A stretch of 13,061 bases of DNA from Thermococci archaeon. Its GTDB lineage: Archaea; Methanobacteriota_B; Thermococci; Thermococcales; Thermococcaceae. The DNA is taken from positions 1-13,061 of the forward strand of contig QMUF01000035.1 in the NCBI GenBank assembly GCA_003663525.1, given 5' to 3'. The notes beneath the pieces are model-generated. The model was not told the DNA's origin. It saw only the letters and a list, made by a program, of their open reading frames with translations, and made no database searches. Below are positions 1 through 13,061 of this stretch, one piece after another; the first letter of the stretch is position 1, and each line of letters begins with the position of its first letter. The position numbers and the translations under genes are program-made.

Positions 1-1187
1 TCAATGAAGAGTGCTTTCCTCTCACGCTCGTTTAAAGCCACTAAATCAATCTCCTCATTTTTATGCCACCAGCGGCCGAGTTTAGTGAATTTAAACGGAA
101 GCTCTCCTTCTTTGTTGAGCCGGTGCAGATACTCTTTCACGATTCCTTCAAAGATTGTACCGAGATATTGGTTGAGGTCTTCCATCACAAACTCTACCAC
201 CGTCGCTCCCTCTCCCGTCTCGATAAGGTCCACATTGGGATGAACATAGCGGAACCAGAAAGCGAAATAGGGATCTTTTATATAATACCTCCCCTTTCTG
301 CTTTTCCAGCTGGCTGTAACTGGAACTTCACGCTTTACGAAGTCGAGGTCAATCAGCACGGAGAGATATTTCCCCACGGTTGCTCTTTCAAGACCCGTCT
401 CGTTGATAATTTCTCCTAGGGTTGTTCTACCCTTTCCTATGGCTTCCAGTATGGCAAAATAGTTCCTAGGTTTGTCGAGCTCTTCCATGAGGATAAAGCG
501 GGCATCACCGTAGAGGAAGGAGTCCAGCCTGAAGTAGTCCATCAAATTCCTCCGAATGTCCTGTCTGTCGTTAAATTCAAGGAGATAAGCGGGGGTCCCT
601 CCCAGTATTCCGTAAGCCTTCACAAAGTCCTCAATATCGTATCGAGGGAGAAACTCCCTTGCACTGAAAAAGTCCATAGGCCTGAGTTTGATCTGTGCTG
701 TTCTTCTACCGTAGAGAGGACTCTTATACCCTAGGAGCTTCTCCATCATCGAGATACTGGAACCGCAGATTATCAGAAAGATTTTACTTTTTGACAGCTT
801 TGTATCCCAATATTCTTGTAGGATGGAAGGAAGAGCTCTGTTAGCCTGTACTAGATATGGGAACTCGTCTATGGCAACTATAAACCTCCTGCTGGAGGAC
901 TTTTGGTATAGATACTCGAAGAAGGCATCCCAGTTCTGAAAAGGATTCCTCTTCAAAAATTCGTCCTTGAAGAATTGTGCAATCTTCTGTGAAAAGCGTC
1001 TCAGGTTTTCCATCTCACTTGTCTCTCTCGCAAGGAGATAGATGCCATCGTGTCGTCTGAGAAATTCTAGGAGCAGGGTAGTTTTTCCTATCCTTCTTCT
1101 CCCGTAAATTACTACAAATTCTGCACGCGGGCTTTCCACTCTGTCATCAAGTGCTACAATTTCGGCTTTCCTATTTATGAACGTCAT
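1..1187 (-). CDS. Archaeal AAA ATPase with DUF234 C-terminal domain (partial, C-terminus beyond left edge)
   Basis: The reading frame opens at an ATG ending at 1187, preceded by a GGTGAG ribosome binding site, and stays open for 395 codons to the window edge. Walker A is GRRRIGKT (residues 29-36), Walker B is FIVAIDEF (about 102-109), and a sensor-like CGSS lies at about 141-144. A winged-helix-like stretch (GEIINETGLERATVGKYL) follows in the C-terminal half. The last visible part, with EEIDLVALNE and ALFIE, matches the nuclease-like DUF234 domain (PF03008), whose key E-x-K would lie just outside. This is the PF01637/PF03008 architecture common in Thermococcales. Its cellular role is not established; NTP binding is a safe inference, nuclease activity is not. 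It is divergent from the DUF1616 gene and has its own palindromic promoter. Only a few dozen residues appear to be missing. Confidence 0.93.
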   Translation of the reverse strand, partial: MTFINRKAEIVALDDRVESPRAEFVVIYGRRRIGKTTLLLEFLRRHDGIYLLARETSEMENLRRFSQKIAQFFKDEFLKRNPFQNWDAFFEYLYQKSSSRRFIVAIDEFPYLVQANRALPSILQEYWDTKLSKSKIFLIICGSSISMMEKLLGYKSPLYGRRTAQIKLRPMDFFSAREFLPRYDIEDFVKAYGILGGTPAYLLEFNDRQDIRRNLMDYFRLDSFLYGDARFILMEELDKPRNYFAILEAIGKGRTTLGEIINETGLERATVGKYLSVLIDLDFVKREVPVTASWKSRKGRYYIKDPYFAFWFRYVHPNVDLIETGEGATVVEFVMEDLNQYLGTIFEGIVKEYLHRLNKEGELPFKFTKLGRWWHKNEEIDLVALNERERKALFI

Positions 1188-3104: not shown

Positions 3105-3121
3105 GCCCTTGGGTGAATTAC

Positions 3122-3352
3122 GTGGGGAGTGTTATTAGTATTCGTGTTCCGCCGGAAATTAAGCGCGAAATGGAGAGGTTAAAGGGTGAGGTTAATTGGA
3201 GTGAGGAGATTAGGGAGTTCATAAAAAAGAAAATCAAGGAGTACAAAAAGAAAAAAGCCCTCCAAGAAGTTGTGGCTTACATCCAAACCTTGCCTGAGGC
3301 TCCAAAAGGAACAGCACAAAAGTTGGTGAGGGAGGATCGTGATAGTCATTGA
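3122..3352 (+). CDS. vapB: VapB-type antitoxin, ribbon-helix-helix
   Basis: The 76-residue product begins with VISIRVPPEIKREMERL, the beta strand and first helix of a ribbon-helix-helix DNA-binding domain, followed by a lysine-rich helix and a C-terminal tail expected to bind and inhibit the toxin. GTG at 3122 is preferred because GGGTGA (3111-3116) sits at the right distance; a GTG at 3113 lies inside that site. The gene overlaps the PIN toxin gene by 14 bases, and the upstream palindrome suggests autoregulation. VapB families are very divergent, so the exact subfamily is uncertain, but gene order and domain pattern agree. Confidence 0.85.
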   Translation: MGSVISIRVPPEIKREMERLKGEVNWSEEIREFIKKKIKEYKKKKALQEVVAYIQTLPEAPKGTAQKLVREDRDSH

Positions 3353-3755
3353 CTCTTCAGCTTTTTCAAAATTCTTAATGAAGGAAGAGGAGTGGGAGAA
3401 AGTAATCCCATACTTTGATCCAGATTTAGAACCGCATGCCGTAGACATGTTGATCATTGAGACAACAAACGTAATATGGAAGTACATGAGAAAGTACAAG
3501 CTAATAACGAGAGAGCAGGCCTTAGGACTTTACGAGCAGGTGACAAAGCTCGTGAGGGAGGAAGTTATAATGTTAGAACCAAGTGAGAAATATTTGCAGG
3601 AAGCCTTGAAAATTGCCATGGATTATGACCTTCCCATTTATGACAGCTTATTTTTGACACAAGCAAAGAATTTGAGAGCTGAATTAATCACAAGTGATAA
3701 AAGACAAGAAGAAGTGGCAAGAGAGATAGGAATAGAAGCAACGTACATAGAATAA
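3339..3755 (+). CDS. vapC: VapC-type PIN domain ribonuclease toxin
   Basis: The 138-residue protein has the PIN acidic set: D5 (VIDSSAF), E41 (IIETTNV), D102 (YDSLFL) and D120 (TSDKR). PIN toxins are Mg-dependent endoribonucleases that cut tRNA or rRNA and are held in check by the partner VapB. The start is GTG at 3339, with GGAGG at 3331-3335 just upstream, inside the 3' end of the antitoxin gene; this implies translational coupling. All expected catalytic residues are present, so the toxin looks functional. Confidence 0.9.
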   Translation: MIVIDSSAFSKFLMKEEEWEKVIPYFDPDLEPHAVDMLIIETTNVIWKYMRKYKLITREQALGLYEQVTKLVREEVIMLEPSEKYLQEALKIAMDYDLPIYDSLFLTQAKNLRAELITSDKRQEEVAREIGIEATYIE

Positions 3756-3835
3756 GTAAACCTTCCTTTGCGTTTATACTGTATTCGCCAAAATGTTTTT
3801 ATTCTTTCCAATCTATATTAATTCCAGTGAGGAGT

Positions 3836-4108
3836 ATGCAAGAGATAGAAAAAGTTGTTTGGGGATTTCCCCTGTTCAAGACTTATGAGGAGAAAGAGAG
3901 GTTTTTCAAAGTGTTAGGGCTGCTGGTCTCTCATCAAATAACATTTGAAAAAGCTGCCGAGCTTCTCAAACTCGACAGGGAAAAGCTCGCATTTCTCTTA
4001 GATCTTCTTGAAATTGACTATTCATTCTTGGATGAAGAAGAAGCTAATCTAGAAAGAAGGGCGGTCAAAAAGCTTTTGGAGGAGCTAAAAAGTGAGGATA
4101 GTCTCTAA
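3836..4108 (+). CDS. UPF0175-like antitoxin partner of DUF3368
   Basis: This roughly 90-residue protein carries a diverged UPF0175-like helix-turn-helix (ITFEKAAELLKLDREKLAFLL) and a charged C-terminal helix (RRAVKKLLEELKSED). The chosen start is ATG at 3836, after GTGAGGAG; a GTG at 3827 would add three residues. A TATA-like TTTTTATTC at about 3796-3804 puts the start site near 3826, so the leader would be about ten bases. It overlaps the DUF3368 gene by 17 bases, which fits the known UPF0175-DUF3368 antitoxin-toxin pairing. Family assignment rests on the KAAELL-x-REKL pattern and on context. Confidence 0.75.
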   Translation: MQEIEKVVWGFPLFKTYEEKERFFKVLGLLVSHQITFEKAAELLKLDREKLAFLLDLLEIDYSFLDEEEANLERRAVKKLLEELKSEDSL

Positions 4109-4553
4109 CACTTCTCCGCTGATCTTCTTAGAAAAGCTAAAATACCTCGACAAAATTTTTGATATCTTTAGTGAAGTTATAACCCCAAAGGCAGTTTATG
4201 AGGAAATTAGAGCGAAAAATGACGAATCCTCAAAGAAGATTGCCGAATTAGTCAACATGGGAAAAATCAAAGTCCTCCAAGTAAATGCCGAAGGAATTGT
4301 GGGTCTGCATAAGGGAGAAGCCGAGGCAATAACCTTGGCGAAGAGAAGTAACTGCTGGGTTGTTTTGGATGATTTAAAAGCTAGGAAAGTTGCGAGAAGC
4401 GAAGGAGTGAAGGTAATTGGGATATTGGGTATTCTAAAGCTTTTGAAAGAATTAAACTTAGCCGAATTTGAGCCTGAAGACCTTTTTAAAGAGCTAACTC
4501 AAGTAGGTTTTAGAATTAAAAGGGAGCTGTTCTTTGAGATTTTCAAAGATTAA
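4092..4553 (+). CDS. DUF3368 PIN-like toxin
   Basis: The 153-residue protein matches DUF3368 (PF11848) along its length: IVSNTSPLIFLEKL at the start, PKAVYEEIR at about 32-40, the GEAEAITLA motif at 75-83, VVLDD-x-KAR at about 90-98, and a VGFRIKREL tail. DUF3368 is a branch of the PIN nuclease superfamily. The first acidic position of classical PIN domains is asparagine here (N6), a substitution common in this family; E38, E76, D93 and D94 remain. GTG at 4092 overlaps the antitoxin frame. It is probably an RNA-cleaving toxin, but activity is inferred. Confidence 0.88.
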   Translation: MRIVSNTSPLIFLEKLKYLDKIFDIFSEVITPKAVYEEIRAKNDESSKKIAELVNMGKIKVLQVNAEGIVGLHKGEAEAITLAKRSNCWVVLDDLKARKVARSEGVKVIGILGILKLLKELNLAEFEPEDLFKELTQVGFRIKRELFFEIFKD

Positions 4554-5691: not shown

Positions 5692-5761
5692 TAAGGAAAA
5701 TTAAAAGATTGCACACCAAGAGAAAGTTTTAAATCTCCTGAGGGTTCAATGACTATTGGTG

Positions 5762-5959
5762 GTGAGAGTGGAAGAAATTGAATATGTATATGGAAAAAAT
5801 GGGAAGATCAAAGCTGTTATAATCCCTATAGACCTCTGGGAAAAAATCAAAGCAAAGTTTTTCGACCCTTCTGAGTTTAGGGGAATATACAAAGACTTAA
5901 AAATTGACCTTGAGAAAGAGCTCAGGGAGCTGAGGGAAGAATGGGAAAGGGATATTTAA
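5762..5959 (+). CDS. vapB: VapB-type antitoxin (second VapBC module)
   Basis: This protein of about 65 residues has a short N-terminal beta region (VEEIEYVYGKNGKIKAVIIP), then DLWEKI, and an acidic helical C-terminus (KELRELREEW) suited to toxin binding. The layout resembles Phd/YefM-like VapB proteins of Thermococcales that precede PIN genes. The start is ambiguous among TTG 5756 and GTG 5759, 5762 and 5768; 5762 is chosen so that the product begins MRVEEIEY. A TATA-like AGTTTTAAAT at about 5725-5734 allows only a short leader. It overlaps the toxin gene by 19 bases. No palindromic operator was seen. Confidence 0.75.
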   Translation: MRVEEIEYVYGKNGKIKAVIIPIDLWEKIKAKFFDPSEFRGIYKDLKIDLEKELRELREEWERDI

Positions 5960-6330
5960 TTGATACAAACATTCTGATTTATTATCTGGCCGATGCAATT
6001 CCAAAAGAGGAGATTAATAGAGTGGAAGAAATTCTTAAAACTTCATTTAATATCTCAATAATTACAAAAATTGAGTTCTTAGGTTGGAGGGGACATACCG
6101 AAGAAGGTTTTAAAAAAGCAAAGGAGTTCATAAGCTTCGCTAGGATTATCCCTCTAGAGGATGAAATTGCAAACTTGACAATAGATTTAAGGCGAAAATA
6201 TAAAATTAAACTCCCGGATGCAGTAATCGCTGCAACGGCACTTTATTATGACTTAATCCTGGTCACGAGAAATGAAAAAGACTTTGAGGGAATTAAAGGG
6301 TTGGAAATTTATAATCCTTTTAAGAGTTAG
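5941..6330 (+). CDS. vapC: VapC-type PIN domain ribonuclease toxin (second module)
   Basis: The 129-residue protein has all PIN hallmarks: D8 (YLIDTNILIYYL), E45 (TKIEFLGW), D93 (KLPDAVIAATA) and the VTRNEKDF block with N111 and D114. Such proteins are Mg-dependent RNases inhibited by the upstream antitoxin. The ATG at 5941 is preceded by GAGGGAAG within the antitoxin gene, and the frames overlap, so the two are probably translationally coupled. The toxin looks intact. It differs from the PIN gene at 3339 throughout, so the two modules are unlikely to be recent duplicates. Confidence 0.92.
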   Translation: MGKGYLIDTNILIYYLADAIPKEEINRVEEILKTSFNISIITKIEFLGWRGHTEEGFKKAKEFISFARIIPLEDEIANLTIDLRRKYKIKLPDAVIAATALYYDLILVTRNEKDFEGIKGLEIYNPFKS

Positions 6331-10996: not shown

Positions 10997-11006
10997 GTTT
11001 TTAAAC

Positions 11007-11025
11007 TTCTTTTTCTTTTTTTATT
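11007..11025 (+). terminator. Oligo-T terminator after the TasA-like gene
   Basis: TTCTTTTTCTTTTTTTATT on the coding strand, 11 bases after the stop, is the usual archaeal termination signal. It sits inside the promoter region of the next gene, whose TATA-like GTTTTTAAAC is at 10998-11006. Confidence 0.6.
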
Positions 11026-11036
11026 TGGTGTTCACA

Positions 11037-11834
11037 ATGATTGGGATAGTTTTTGATATGGATGGGGTCATTTATAGGGGAAATCAACCGGTTGAAGGGG
11101 TTAAAGAGGTTATTAAGTTTTTGAGGGCCAATAAGATTCCCTTCGTATTTCTCACCAATAATTCAACCAGAGATGCTAAAATGTATAAGGAAAAGCTTTG
11201 GGGGATGGGAATTGAGGTTGAAGAGGAGAGAATAATAACTTCTGGCTATGCAACGGCCCAGTACTTAAATAGACATTTTGAAAAGGGTCTGGTGTTTGTG
11301 ATTGGTGGTAGGGGCCTTGTGGAGGAAATAAAGGGCATAGGTTGGCCTGTGATAAGCCTTGAAGAAGCAAAAGAGAAGTGGAGAGAAATAAGATATGTTG
11401 TAGTTGGTATGGATCCTCAATTGACCTATGAAAAGCTCAAGTACGGCTGTTTAGCGATAAGAAATGGGGCCCGTTTTATAGGCACAAATCCAGACACCAC
11501 CTATCCGGGTGAGGAAGGAATTCTTCCCGGTGCCGGTTCCATAATTGCGGCACTAAAAGTTGCCACTGAGAAGGAGCCTTTAATTATAGGAAAGCCCAAT
11601 GAACCTGTTTTTGAAGTGGTTAGAGAAAAACTAAACGCTGATAAGATATGGGTGGTTGGAGATAGACTCGACACTGACATGGCCTTTGCAAAGAAAATTG
11701 GGGCAAAGGCAATAATGGTCTTAACCGGTGTAAACACACTTGAGGACATAGAAAAGAGTGAAGTTAAGCCCGATATAGTGTTACCCAGCATCAAGGAGCT
11801 TTTGGAGTACATAAAGGTGCAGTTGGAGATTTAA
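11037..11834 (+). CDS. HAD superfamily phosphatase, NagD-like
   Basis: The 265-residue protein has HAD motif I FDMDGVIY (D7, D9), motif II FLTNNSTR (T40), the lysine of motif III in IIGKPNEP (K186), and motif IV VVGDRLDTD (D209, D214). The C2-type cap lies between motifs II and III (about 80-185), placing it with NagD and 4-nitrophenylphosphatase-like enzymes; Pyrococcus horikoshii PH1952 is a relative of similar size. It should hydrolyse a small phosphorylated metabolite in the cytoplasm; the substrate cannot be read from sequence. ATG at 11037, with GGTG at 11028-11031, is preferred over an in-frame ATG 35 codons upstream that lies within the previous gene. Confidence 0.93.
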   Translation: MIGIVFDMDGVIYRGNQPVEGVKEVIKFLRANKIPFVFLTNNSTRDAKMYKEKLWGMGIEVEEERIITSGYATAQYLNRHFEKGLVFVIGGRGLVEEIKGIGWPVISLEEAKEKWREIRYVVVGMDPQLTYEKLKYGCLAIRNGARFIGTNPDTTYPGEEGILPGAGSIIAALKVATEKEPLIIGKPNEPVFEVVREKLNADKIWVVGDRLDTDMAFAKKIGAKAIMVLTGVNTLEDIEKSEVKPDIVLPSIKELLEYIKVQLEI

Positions 11835-11853
11835 AATCTATTCTCTTAATTTC

Positions 11854-12186
11854 TTATTCAATGAGCTCCTCTATTAGGGGTTTTAATAGTGGGATATCTT
11901 CTTTTATAGTTTTCCAGACTACTCTAAGATCAACTCCAAAATATGCATGAATAAGCTTGTCTCGCATTCTTGCCATCTCACTCCAAGGTACCTTTGCATG
12001 GTTCGATTTAACCTCATTGGGGATATTCTTTGCAGCTTCTCCAATGATTTCCAATGCTCTGATAACAGCAAATTGTGTTTTCTTGTCTTTAATGAACTCA
12101 TCAAAGTTAATATTTTCAGTGAACTCTTCAATTAGCCTTATGGCTTCTATAATGTCGTTCAGGTAATCTTCATGTACTCGCTTCAT
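11854..12186 (-). CDS. hepT: HepT-type HEPN ribonuclease toxin (DUF86)
   Basis: The 110-residue, all-helical protein contains the HEPN motif RDKLIHAY, with R75 and H80 as the RX4H pair and Y82 completing RX4HXY. A conserved [13 protein letters not shown] segment lies at 44-56. HepT cleaves RNA and is silenced when the partner MntA transfers AMP to the tyrosine of this motif; both the residue and the partner gene are present. The start codon overlaps the stop of mntA in ATGA, so the two are co-translated. The gene is convergent with the HAD phosphatase, only 19 bases away. Confidence 0.92.
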
Positions 12187-12476
12187 ATGTAAACGACCTC
12201 CTTATGCACGGCCTGGGATATTTTGGGTTTCAATGCAGACTCCATCACAAGATCGACTCTAATACCAAGCAGTTCTTCTAAATACTCTTCAAGTTTGAGG
12301 AATGTTAGTAGAGAAGGCACTTCATAAAAATCTACAAGTATGTCTACATCACTCGTTTCTCTAGCCTCTCCTCTAACATAAGATCCAAAAATGCCTATTT
12401 TTTTAACTTTGAACTTTTTTTGGAGTTCTCCTTTGTGTTGTTTTAATATTTGCTCAATTTCCTCTAATCTCTTCAT
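12183..12476 (-). CDS. mntA: MntA-type minimal nucleotidyltransferase antitoxin
   Basis: The 97-residue protein has the minimal nucleotidyltransferase signature [18 protein letters not shown] (G31, S32, D43, D45) and a third acidic residue in VDLVM (D75). MntA proteins AMPylate the HEPN toxin encoded downstream and thereby neutralise it. A TATA-like GTTTATATT at about 12517-12509 on the minus strand puts the start site roughly ten bases before the ATG; no clear Shine-Dalgarno sequence is seen. All catalytic residues are intact, and the order antitoxin then toxin, with a four-base overlap, is canonical. Confidence 0.92.
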
Positions 12477-12540
12477 ATTAGCATCAAGATTTATTTTGTT
12501 ATTAAGGAAAATATAAACCTTACTTTTACTTTTTTCTTTT

Positions 12541-12663
12541 GAAAGCTTTGTCCGTAGGGGTGGGGGTAGTTCACTCCCGAGAGCTTTTCTTATCTCTGCT
12601 GGGAGACTTATCTAATAATTGTGCGTGACTTTTGTGAGTGGATCCAATCACCTGTCACTGACC
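12541..12663. other. Structured spacer between the GC-rich RNA and mntA
   Basis: There is no gene here. The stretch holds an 18-bp near-palindrome GTGAGTGGATCCAATCAC (12634-12651, one mismatched pair). A GC-rich block at about 12549-12582 is closed by AAAGCT (12542-12547) and AGCTTT (12582-12587), with GGGAGTGAACTACCC on the minus strand able to form a bulged hairpin with a UGAA loop. On the minus strand no oligo-T run separates the upstream RNA from the mntA promoter. The block may be a degraded end of another IS605-type element. Confidence 0.35.
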
Positions 12664-12960
12664 TCCTTCCCGTCCTGAAGGGCGAGGGTTCTAACGAGTT
12701 AACCCCTCGCTAACGGACGGTTCGGTTTGCGGGCCCATCACCTACTCCCGTTACCGGTTTCGGCTCAGCCCACAGGCCGGGTCTTCGGCCCATTACCCCT
12801 ACCGCAGAGCGGTTTGGGGTTATCGTTTTAGAGGCCACTCCAATGGTTTCAACCGCCCGAAGGCGGTTTTGAGAGGACGCCTATCGGCGTCTTCCCTCCC
12901 GAGGGGGGAGGGACACGAGTAAACCCCTTTGGAGGGAGTATCTGACGGTGGCCTCTCCGA
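12664..12960 (-). ncRNA. GC-rich structured RNA, possibly omega-RNA-like
   Basis: The region is about 60% G+C where counted (12841-12900), against about 20% at 12481-12540, and has no coding frame. On the minus strand a 9-bp stem (12956-12948 with 12838-12830) closes a domain of three hairpins: TCCCTCC/GGAGGGA (12913-12907 with 12899-12893), GACGCC-GATA-GGCGTC (12891-12876), and AACCGCC-TTCG-GGCGGTT (12868-12851), whose cUUCGg loop favours this strand. A second domain has ACCCC/GGGGT around CCGC/GCGG (12820-12795), GGGCC/GGCCC (12791-12787 with 12735-12731), and a 3' helix of CCGTCC/GGACGG (12720-12715 with 12675-12670) and GCGAGGG/CCCTCGC (12710-12704 with 12688-12682). No RNase P, SRP, tRNA or rRNA signature was found. 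The ends are estimates. Confidence 0.65.
12669..12698 (-). repeat. 3' module shared with the tnpB-like end (copy 2)
   Basis: CCTCGCCCTTCAGGACGGG (12687-12669, minus strand), preceded by CTCGT, matches CCTCGTCCTTCAGGGCGGG near 13046-13028 at 17 of 19 positions, and CTCGT also precedes that copy. Here the module forms the 3' strands of the last helix of the structured RNA. Confidence 0.6.
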
Positions 12961-12981
12961 GGCCCTATTACGTTACAAGAG

Positions 12982-12989
12982 TTTAAAAA
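12982..12989 (-). promoter_or_regulatory. TATA box of the structured RNA
   Basis: On the minus strand TTTTTAAA, within AAGCTTTTTAAACTC, is centred about 26 bases before 12959, where the first long stem of the RNA begins. The spacing supports an independent transcript on this strand. Confidence 0.5.
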
Positions 12990-13020
12990 GCTTTCTACTC
13001 AAGTGCCGATTTTAGGATTC

Positions 13021-13061
13021 TTACATCCCCGCCCTGAAGGACGAGGCTTTCACGAGGGGAA
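13021..13061 (-). CDS. tnpB: C-terminal codons of a TnpB-like (IS605/IS1341-type) protein (partial)
   Basis: On the minus strand the frame entering from the right edge reads PLVKASSFRAGM and stops with TAA at 13023-13021. The DNA CCTCGTCCTTCAGGGCGGGG ahead of the stop is of the kind that ends IS605/IS1341-type tnpB genes and their omega-RNAs in archaea. Only 13 codons are visible, so the call rests on this terminal signature, recognised from general knowledge rather than a search. TnpB is an RNA-guided DNA nuclease that uses an RNA made from the 3' end of its own gene. If correct, the element's right end lies near 13020. Confidence 0.45.
   Translation of the reverse strand, partial: PLVKASSFRAGM

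Follow-up and report, generated by a model that had tools for sequence, protein, structure and literature searches.

A multicopy IS200/IS605-type unit of the Thermococcaceae with a TnpB-type omega/reRNA core and a covarying 5' RNA domain

A GC-rich island and its minus-strand RNA gene

The window (the whole 13,061-nucleotide stretch of DNA that was analysed, contig QMUF01000035.1 of a Thermococci archaeon) carries an island of high GC content near one end: 100-base GC fractions are 0.57-0.64 over positions 12650-12949 versus 0.24-0.50 over 11000-12649. The list of open reading frames has none of 60 or more amino acids at 12658-13057. The minus strand of 12655-12970 folds to -147.9 kcal/mol (z = -4.48) and the plus strand of the same region gives a weaker but good fold (z = -3.73), with 0 of 100 shuffled sequences as low in either case. 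A TATA-like hexamer lies inside the 26 nt corresponding to the window's minus-strand TATA box in 42 of the 48 element copies described below, against 21 of 189 control windows, and the customary archaeal distance between TATA box and start predicts initiation near 12958.

The initial annotation of this DNA had proposed a promoter-driven RNA at 12664-12989, and the GC-rich island, the TATA box and the stems that it listed (including the cUUCGg hairpin at 12851-12868 and the 3' helices) are all present. The RNA gene body is 12658-12971 on the minus strand, and the interval needs widening to about 12658-13057 for the entire mobile unit; its 9-bp closing helix likewise exists (12956-12948 with 12838-12830), but closes the 5' domain and not the entire RNA. 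The parts of the unit are as follows (percentages are the alignment cells in which a helix is paired; R1 and R2 are the models of the two RNA parts).

12658 to 13057 (about), minus strand: the complete mobile unit, read as non-autonomous and of IS200/IS605 type; long copies end at or near these points and have unrelated flanks
About 13057 and 12658, minus strand: the left end (5' of the RNA) and the right end of the unit
13026 to 13049, minus strand: left-end subterminal hairpin, resembling the right-end hairpin (direct repeat D1) and conserved in the alignment
12989 to 12982, minus strand: TATA box TTTTTAAA, with a TATA-like hexamer conserved at this position among copies
12826 to 12971, minus strand: 5' RNA domain (R1) of about 146 nt, closed by P1 and containing hairpins PA, PB and PC
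12950 to 12964, minus strand: palindrome P0, GGCCTC-GGA-GAGGCC, spanning the predicted start (91.6%)
12948 to 12956, minus strand: 5' arm of the 9-bp closing helix P1, whose 3' arm is 12838-12830 (86.2%)
12893 to 12913, minus strand: hairpin PA (helix 2, 87.4%)
12876 to 12891, minus strand: hairpin PB, GACGCC/GGCGTC (helix 3, 99.1%)
12851 to 12868, minus strand: hairpin PC, with a cUUCGg loop in the window copy (helix 4, 87.0%)
12658 to 12825, minus strand: omega/reRNA core (R2), 168 nt from CGATAACCCC to GGTCAG, homologous to tnpB-linked cores
12669 to 12690, minus strand: right-end hairpin, within the core (D1; covariation helix 10, 88.4%)
12638 to 12657, minus strand: predicted guide, the flank immediately past GGTCAG, by analogy with reRNA (PMC8612924)

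At gathering level no Rfam model matches the window, and neither Rfam nor ARAGORN finds an RNase P, SRP, tRNA or rRNA, which rules out these housekeeping RNAs in agreement with what the initial annotation had said. Its verdict of no recognised family is correct at that level, but two weaker matches proved to be the right lead to the identity of the RNA. The 130-nt Rfam model of HgcC (RF00062) gives the window 27.0 bits, under its 50-bit cut-off, the best match spanning 12646-12793 only, and sot0042 (RF02656) gives 19.3 bits, with a gathering cut-off of 88. At related loci HgcC rises to 43.2 bits and sot0042 to 43.0 at best; both remain below gathering in every locus scanned.

Adjoining the element, at 11854-12476 on the minus strand, is a HepT-like ribonuclease and nucleotidyltransferase (MNT) gene pair. 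Elsewhere in the window three small gene pairs on the plus strand (3113-3755, 3827-4553 and 5756-6330) resemble PIN-type toxin-antitoxin modules; the protein encoded at 5941-6330 (plus strand) has a PIN match.

Copies, ends and insertion sites

The RNA gene belongs to a repeated unit. There are 20 matches in its own genome, ranging from 31 nt to full length, of which three besides the window copy are near-full, at 88-91% identity, and several lie at contig ends; 32 of 61 genomes contain matches, all 32 in the Thermococcaceae. Long copies in this genome and its relatives have common end points and unrelated flanks. The palindromes near the two unit ends are direct repeats of one another (13028-13049 and 12669-12690, 86% identity), and no listed inverted repeat joins the ends. 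In 30 of 40 copies TTAC is present in the last 23 nt ahead of the left end (the other 10 lack it), compared with 23 of 401 control windows; the 40 are what is left of 48 copies after removal of six with no recognisable left end and of two duplicates. The window copy is preceded by TTCC instead; an empty site left by this copy might therefore be without a suitable motif.

One insertion, in the genome G002, can be set against sites that do not carry it. Its joined flanks match as two pieces separated by 408 bp in G002 and are unbroken across the joint in 14 of 37 genomes searched. Five uninterrupted sites were read, with TTAC in one and TTGC in four, and with a target duplication in none. Insertion appears to be mostly after TTAC and to proceed without duplication (for duplication, as judged at the one insertion compared), and these are features of the IS200/IS605 family, members of which insert 3' of TTGAT (ISDra2) or TTAC (IS608) with no duplication (PMC8612924). 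As far as sequence comparison goes, the unit is mobile and multicopy, and it has hairpins near its ends, a target motif and a TATA-like box.

The initial annotation had taken the locus to be an independent host RNA unconnected to transposons. The TATA-like box and the strong structure would fit such a gene, but the repeated copies with common ends and unrelated flanks, the uninterrupted sites compared with G002 and the homology of the 3' half to TnpB-linked RNA (see below) all contradict it. We find it scarcely credible; in its plain form, a host RNA with no transposon link, it is refuted by the G002 empty sites and the R2 matches at tnpB loci. The lone host RNA unrelated to known things is instead a repeated mobile element whose 3' half has known kin. 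What largely endures is the proposal of a promoter-driven structured non-coding RNA on the minus strand, with which the covariation of its helices, the conserved TATA-like box and published transcripts of related loci (PMC4247193) are all consistent.

In several respects the unit resembles the PATEs of Haloquadratum, which have IS605-type ends with no inverted repeats, make no target duplication and are too short to encode a transposase (PMC3119063). It differs from PATEs, as they are described in that account, in having a probable promoter and a conserved putative guide RNA inside the element (PMC3119063). PATEs also exist as terminal-only forms, generated through deletion between repeats (PMC3119063). 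Copies of about 45 bp in the window's own genome (L013, L016, L018 and L019), each with one hairpin and both end motifs, look as if the unit's two similar hairpins had recombined, and bear a resemblance to those terminal-only PATEs (PMC3119063).

Some further details of individual copies may be recorded here. A copy in G002 (C3:312980-313387; L125 and L196) splits a stretch that reads, from its sequence, as the start of purE. At 12526-12565 on the plus strand of the window, adjoining the main copy, TTACTTTTTTCTTTTGAAAGCTTTGTCCGTAGGGGTGGGG has the look of an oppositely oriented left end from this element family that has since degraded (inverted repeat I1). L083, L086, L090 and others have a mosaic look, with loop variants differently combined, which suggests conversion among copies.

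A TnpB-linked core and a 5' domain in the place of the coding sequence

The reRNA of ISDra2-type elements is a right-end RNA that overlaps the 3' end of tnpB and uses the flank as guide, the insertion motif serving as TAM (PMC8612924, PMC10278001). The core model R2, built from stand-alone copies only, matches end to end, at 63.7-134.5 bits, all 14 tnpB loci picked for comparison (L179-L192; picked for a nearby core match or for TnpB score and hence not a random sample). At each of these 14 loci the core extends over the final part of the tnpB reading frame (ITPS...GRGN... or similar), the stop codon lying 19-82 nt before the GGTCAG end. A TNB domain is present in both TnpB proteins tested; the full-length one scores 194.3 bits with the NCBIfam model guided_TnpB (cut-off 100) and a fragment from the window's own genome scores 79.4. 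Other TnpB loci (L051-L080) have a core of at least 58 bits in only 3 of 30 (L060, L070 and L079), and other TnpB groups therefore seem to carry different RNAs. The 3' 168 nt of the window RNA are, by these matches, homologous to the omega/reRNA of one TnpB group of the Thermococcaceae. Two observations on the tnpB-linked loci stand apart: the 435-aa TnpB of L179 has VIGYPKGIARNSDKG at what is presumably the RuvC-II glutamate site, possibly a rearranged catalytic site, and at L140 a tnpB-linked core is closely followed, on its downstream side, by the C/D box sRNA sR23 (716-768, plus strand; 74.8 bits).

Cores come in two contexts. Among 83 cores of at least 58 bits, in the eight genomes for which both searches were available (G036, which we take to be Thermococcus kodakarensis KOD1, was left out), the 5' domain lies directly upstream of 43 and a TnpB TNB domain upstream of 34, with both at none and neither at six; since 2 of the 34 TNB matches score below the Pfam cut-off, admitting only those above it changes the counts to 43, 32, 0 and 8. 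The gap between TNB match and core is 19 nt in 31 of the 34 TnpB-linked cases. In all 14 tnpB-linked cores the internal spacing preserves the TnpB frame, versus 9 of 36 stand-alone ones, and each of these nine has a stop in that frame; a further 9 of 36 show no stop when read in the former TnpB frame, but in these the spacing breaks it. The frame being lost or stopped, stand-alone cores are non-coding. In the window's own genome two cores are TnpB-linked, C127 and C13, and they have short open frames of 172 and 105 aa, that of C127 cut short by a contig end.

The 5' domain, which is conserved and covarying, occupies the place that the TnpB coding sequence has in tnpB elements, as the alignments and model matches show it. 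The idea that it is left over from that coding sequence is ruled out by its distribution: in 52 tnpB/tnpA loci R1 finds only two stand-alone copies beside tnpB and two weak matches (L066, 16.7 bits; L184, 11.9 bits) that we take as chance. R1 has 206 matches, up to 20 per genome, in 51 of 94 Thermococcaceae genomes. Across the 115 genomes of the phylum, searched with strict filters that may lose weak matches, 51 have it, all of them in the Thermococcaceae. A DNA pattern scan across genome contigs yielded 21 stretches, 16 in Thermococci and 5 in unrelated bacteria, the latter taken as chance.

The element RNA is like the reRNA/omegaRNA of ISDra2-type systems in having a core homologous to a tnpB-linked RNA of the same archaeal family, with its right-end hairpin, and unlike these systems in that the element lacks tnpB, has a TATA-like box of its own and bears an extra covarying 5' domain in place of the coding sequence.

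Covariation was assessed in an alignment (A1) of 36 rows drawn from 49 long copies (48 and the window), 13 truncated or near-duplicate ones having been dropped; one genus supplies 33 of the 36 rows (two further alignments, A2 and A3, have 35 and 28). Over these 36 copies the structure has 54 pairs in ten helices, formed in 92.6% of cells, with two-sided changes at 25 pairs in 129 cells. None of 500 shuffles, which ignore kinship, reaches any of these values, and versions of the structure slid along the alignment are only 36.8-51.5% paired, a comparison in which the true register is favoured since it was selected on the same rows. RNAalifold by itself arrives at 55 pairs, of which 26 show a kept two-sided change. 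The helices of the initial annotation, for which it had suggested a check in homologues, do therefore covary. In P1, six of the nine pairs have two-sided changes, and in P0 five of six. These two pairings share one strand (A1 columns 9-25, window 12948-12964) and exclude one another, yet both covary. With transcription predicted to begin near 12958, the more distant arm of P0 would fall immediately 5' of the RNA itself, and P0 may therefore function in the DNA, or else as an alternative pairing.

The evidence so far bears on the possibility that the unit is a decayed IS605 element, a PATE left by internal deletion from a tnpB element, with the RNA structure a passive leftover and with no guide function in trans. 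PATEs of this kind are known in haloarchaea and some have been described as degenerate versions (PMC3119063); truncated and solo-hairpin copies of the present family occur and many genomes lack TnpA. We nevertheless think decay unlikely, for the 5' domain is not tnpB sequence and is yet conserved and covarying, a full core is retained behind 43 of 46 5' domains in eight genomes, and 42 of 48 copies retain the TATA-like box. Insertions shared between genomes give a mixed picture of divergence in element and flanks. The RNA is the more conserved in L112/L113 (308/318 identical, flanks 188/199 and 182/200) and the less conserved in L096/L102 (274/295, flanks 196/197 and 198/199), the latter pair speaking for decay; L120/L121 have 323/324 in the RNA with 200/200 and 183/200 in the flanks, and L111/L112 are identical throughout RNA and flanks. 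Apparently decayed copies are seen in G018, which we take to be Pyrococcus abyssi: both of its 5' domains (L235 and L236, 43.1 and 27.7 bits) lie near left-end sequence and have no core downstream.

A guide RNA that may borrow its nuclease, and its relatives

The explanation that we favour, and hold to be probably correct, is that the unit is a non-autonomous, PATE-like IS200/IS605 element whose sole product is a stand-alone omega/reRNA, with TnpB and TnpA predicted to act in trans. The element promoter would direct synthesis of an RNA of about 300 nt, the last 16-20 nt or so of which, copied from the flank, would serve as guide. TnpB made from another element in the same cell would bind the core, and the 5' domain might be trimmed off by the RuvC processing activity of TnpB. 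The complex would then cut the empty donor site (TTAC and flank) left by excision, and repair of the cut from the sister chromosome would restore the element, as has been proposed for ISDra2 (PMC8612924).

Movement would depend on Y1 TnpA provided in trans. Y1 TnpA occurs in 25 of the 94 family genomes, that is, in 22 of 51 with the 5' domain versus 3 of 43 lacking it (Fisher p = 6e-5, uncorrected for kinship); it is absent from 29 of the 51, and was not found in the window's own genome, an assembly that is 82.8% complete. At three of eight TnpA loci (L175, L176 and L178) there is a core on the TnpA strand, some 1.2 kb further downstream, and in G012 TnpA, TnpB and core are consecutive on one strand (255288, 256601 and 256821). 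Seven genomes assembled into one or two contigs contain 39 copies of the 5' domain; two of these begin less than 2.5 kb away from a TNB match, and the median separation is about 66 kb.

What the 5' domain does can be approached from the behaviour of TnpB, which processes its own message to omegaRNA by trimming on the 5' side, and part of that message is able to inhibit cleavage (PMC10278001). Hence the domain could be removed by trimming, could have a regulatory role, or could simply permit independent transcription; most likely, we infer, it allows synthesis and folding of the guide RNA independently of a tnpB message. A more adventurous suggestion, which we consider possible although we would not bet on it, is that these are guide-RNA-only parasites of an RNA-guided nuclease, which have retained the IS605 ends and TnpB scaffold but exchanged the nuclease gene for a new RNA domain that actively serves the element, by capturing TnpB in trans, by blocking or directing processing or by switching between P0 and P1, in competition with nuclease-encoding elements.

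TnpB-like repressors exist, and a domesticated regulator is another reading: TnpB or a nuclease-dead relative would use the stand-alone RNAs to repress or cut host targets through their guides. Some insertions are common to different species, with the guide drawn from one and the same flank (L111-L113 and L120-L121, for instance), which speaks for this reading, but guides otherwise differ from copy to copy, because guides are flanks. For the window guide, moreover, the 18-mer at 12640-12657 has no second match with three or fewer mismatches in its own genome assembly (82.8% complete). We judge a regulator of this kind to be quite improbable.

The prevailing view of TnpB is that it holds its own transposon in place. 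If a guide-only element does borrow the nuclease, other elements can share this means of retention or live on it as parasites, in the way that SINEs depend on the enzymes of LINEs. IS605 elements that lack a transposase are an established idea, and the ends and the scaffold are familiar as well; what is new is the guide-RNA-only unit in which an RNA domain has been substituted. No earlier description of the element was recognised in the open-access literature (subscription papers lay mostly outside the scope of the search). The family is a predicted natural source of abundant stand-alone guide RNAs of hyperthermophile origin, and also a natural experiment in which parts of the scaffold set by RNA structure may be told from those set by coding.

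Stand-alone omegaRNAs are also known for IscB. Several archaeal RNAs invite comparison. The first, sot0042, is a Halobacterium sotRNA, now called omegaRNA, a sense RNA within tnpB of haloarchaea (PMC12558985); its model scores weakly with the window RNA, and it sits inside tnpB whereas the window RNA is stand-alone. To our knowledge, binding of L7Ae through kink-turns is not known for the RNA family of the element. Such binding is a property of P. abyssi sRkB and sRkC, promoter-driven RNAs that come from repeated loci; in one case the locus is the 3' terminus of a gene for OrfB, a TnpB-type protein (PMC3124441). The element RNA is like them in being promoter-driven, in coming from repeated loci and in its link with TnpB. 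At the published coordinates of sRkB, sRkC, sRk48 and sRk52 in G018 there is no R1 match and, for R2, an 8.6-bit trace (L233); these four were rejected as members of the same family.

HgcC, too, belongs in the comparison. The T. kodakarensis transcriptome contains five expressed HgcC RNAs, HgcC1-3 within transposase genes and HgcC4-5 outside them (PMC4247193); HgcC4 has a mapped start that is common with TK1679, and no transposase, and HgcC5 lies within TK1820, a membrane metalloprotease gene (PMC4247193). Among the six R2 matches listed, of eight in G036, five fit HgcC1-5 in order, at 842-896 bases per TK gene number, and the sixth, at 1124374 (41 bits), fits none of the five. We infer from order and gene type, rather than from published coordinates, that these cores are probably HgcC1-5. 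The locus that fits HgcC5 is within an M50 peptidase gene. The locus that fits HgcC4 bears the 5' domain, a 145-aa frame beginning inside its core, and, going by the published transcriptome, this 5'-domain copy would be transcribed (PMC4247193). The element family would in this way explain an HgcC RNA that has no transposase gene.
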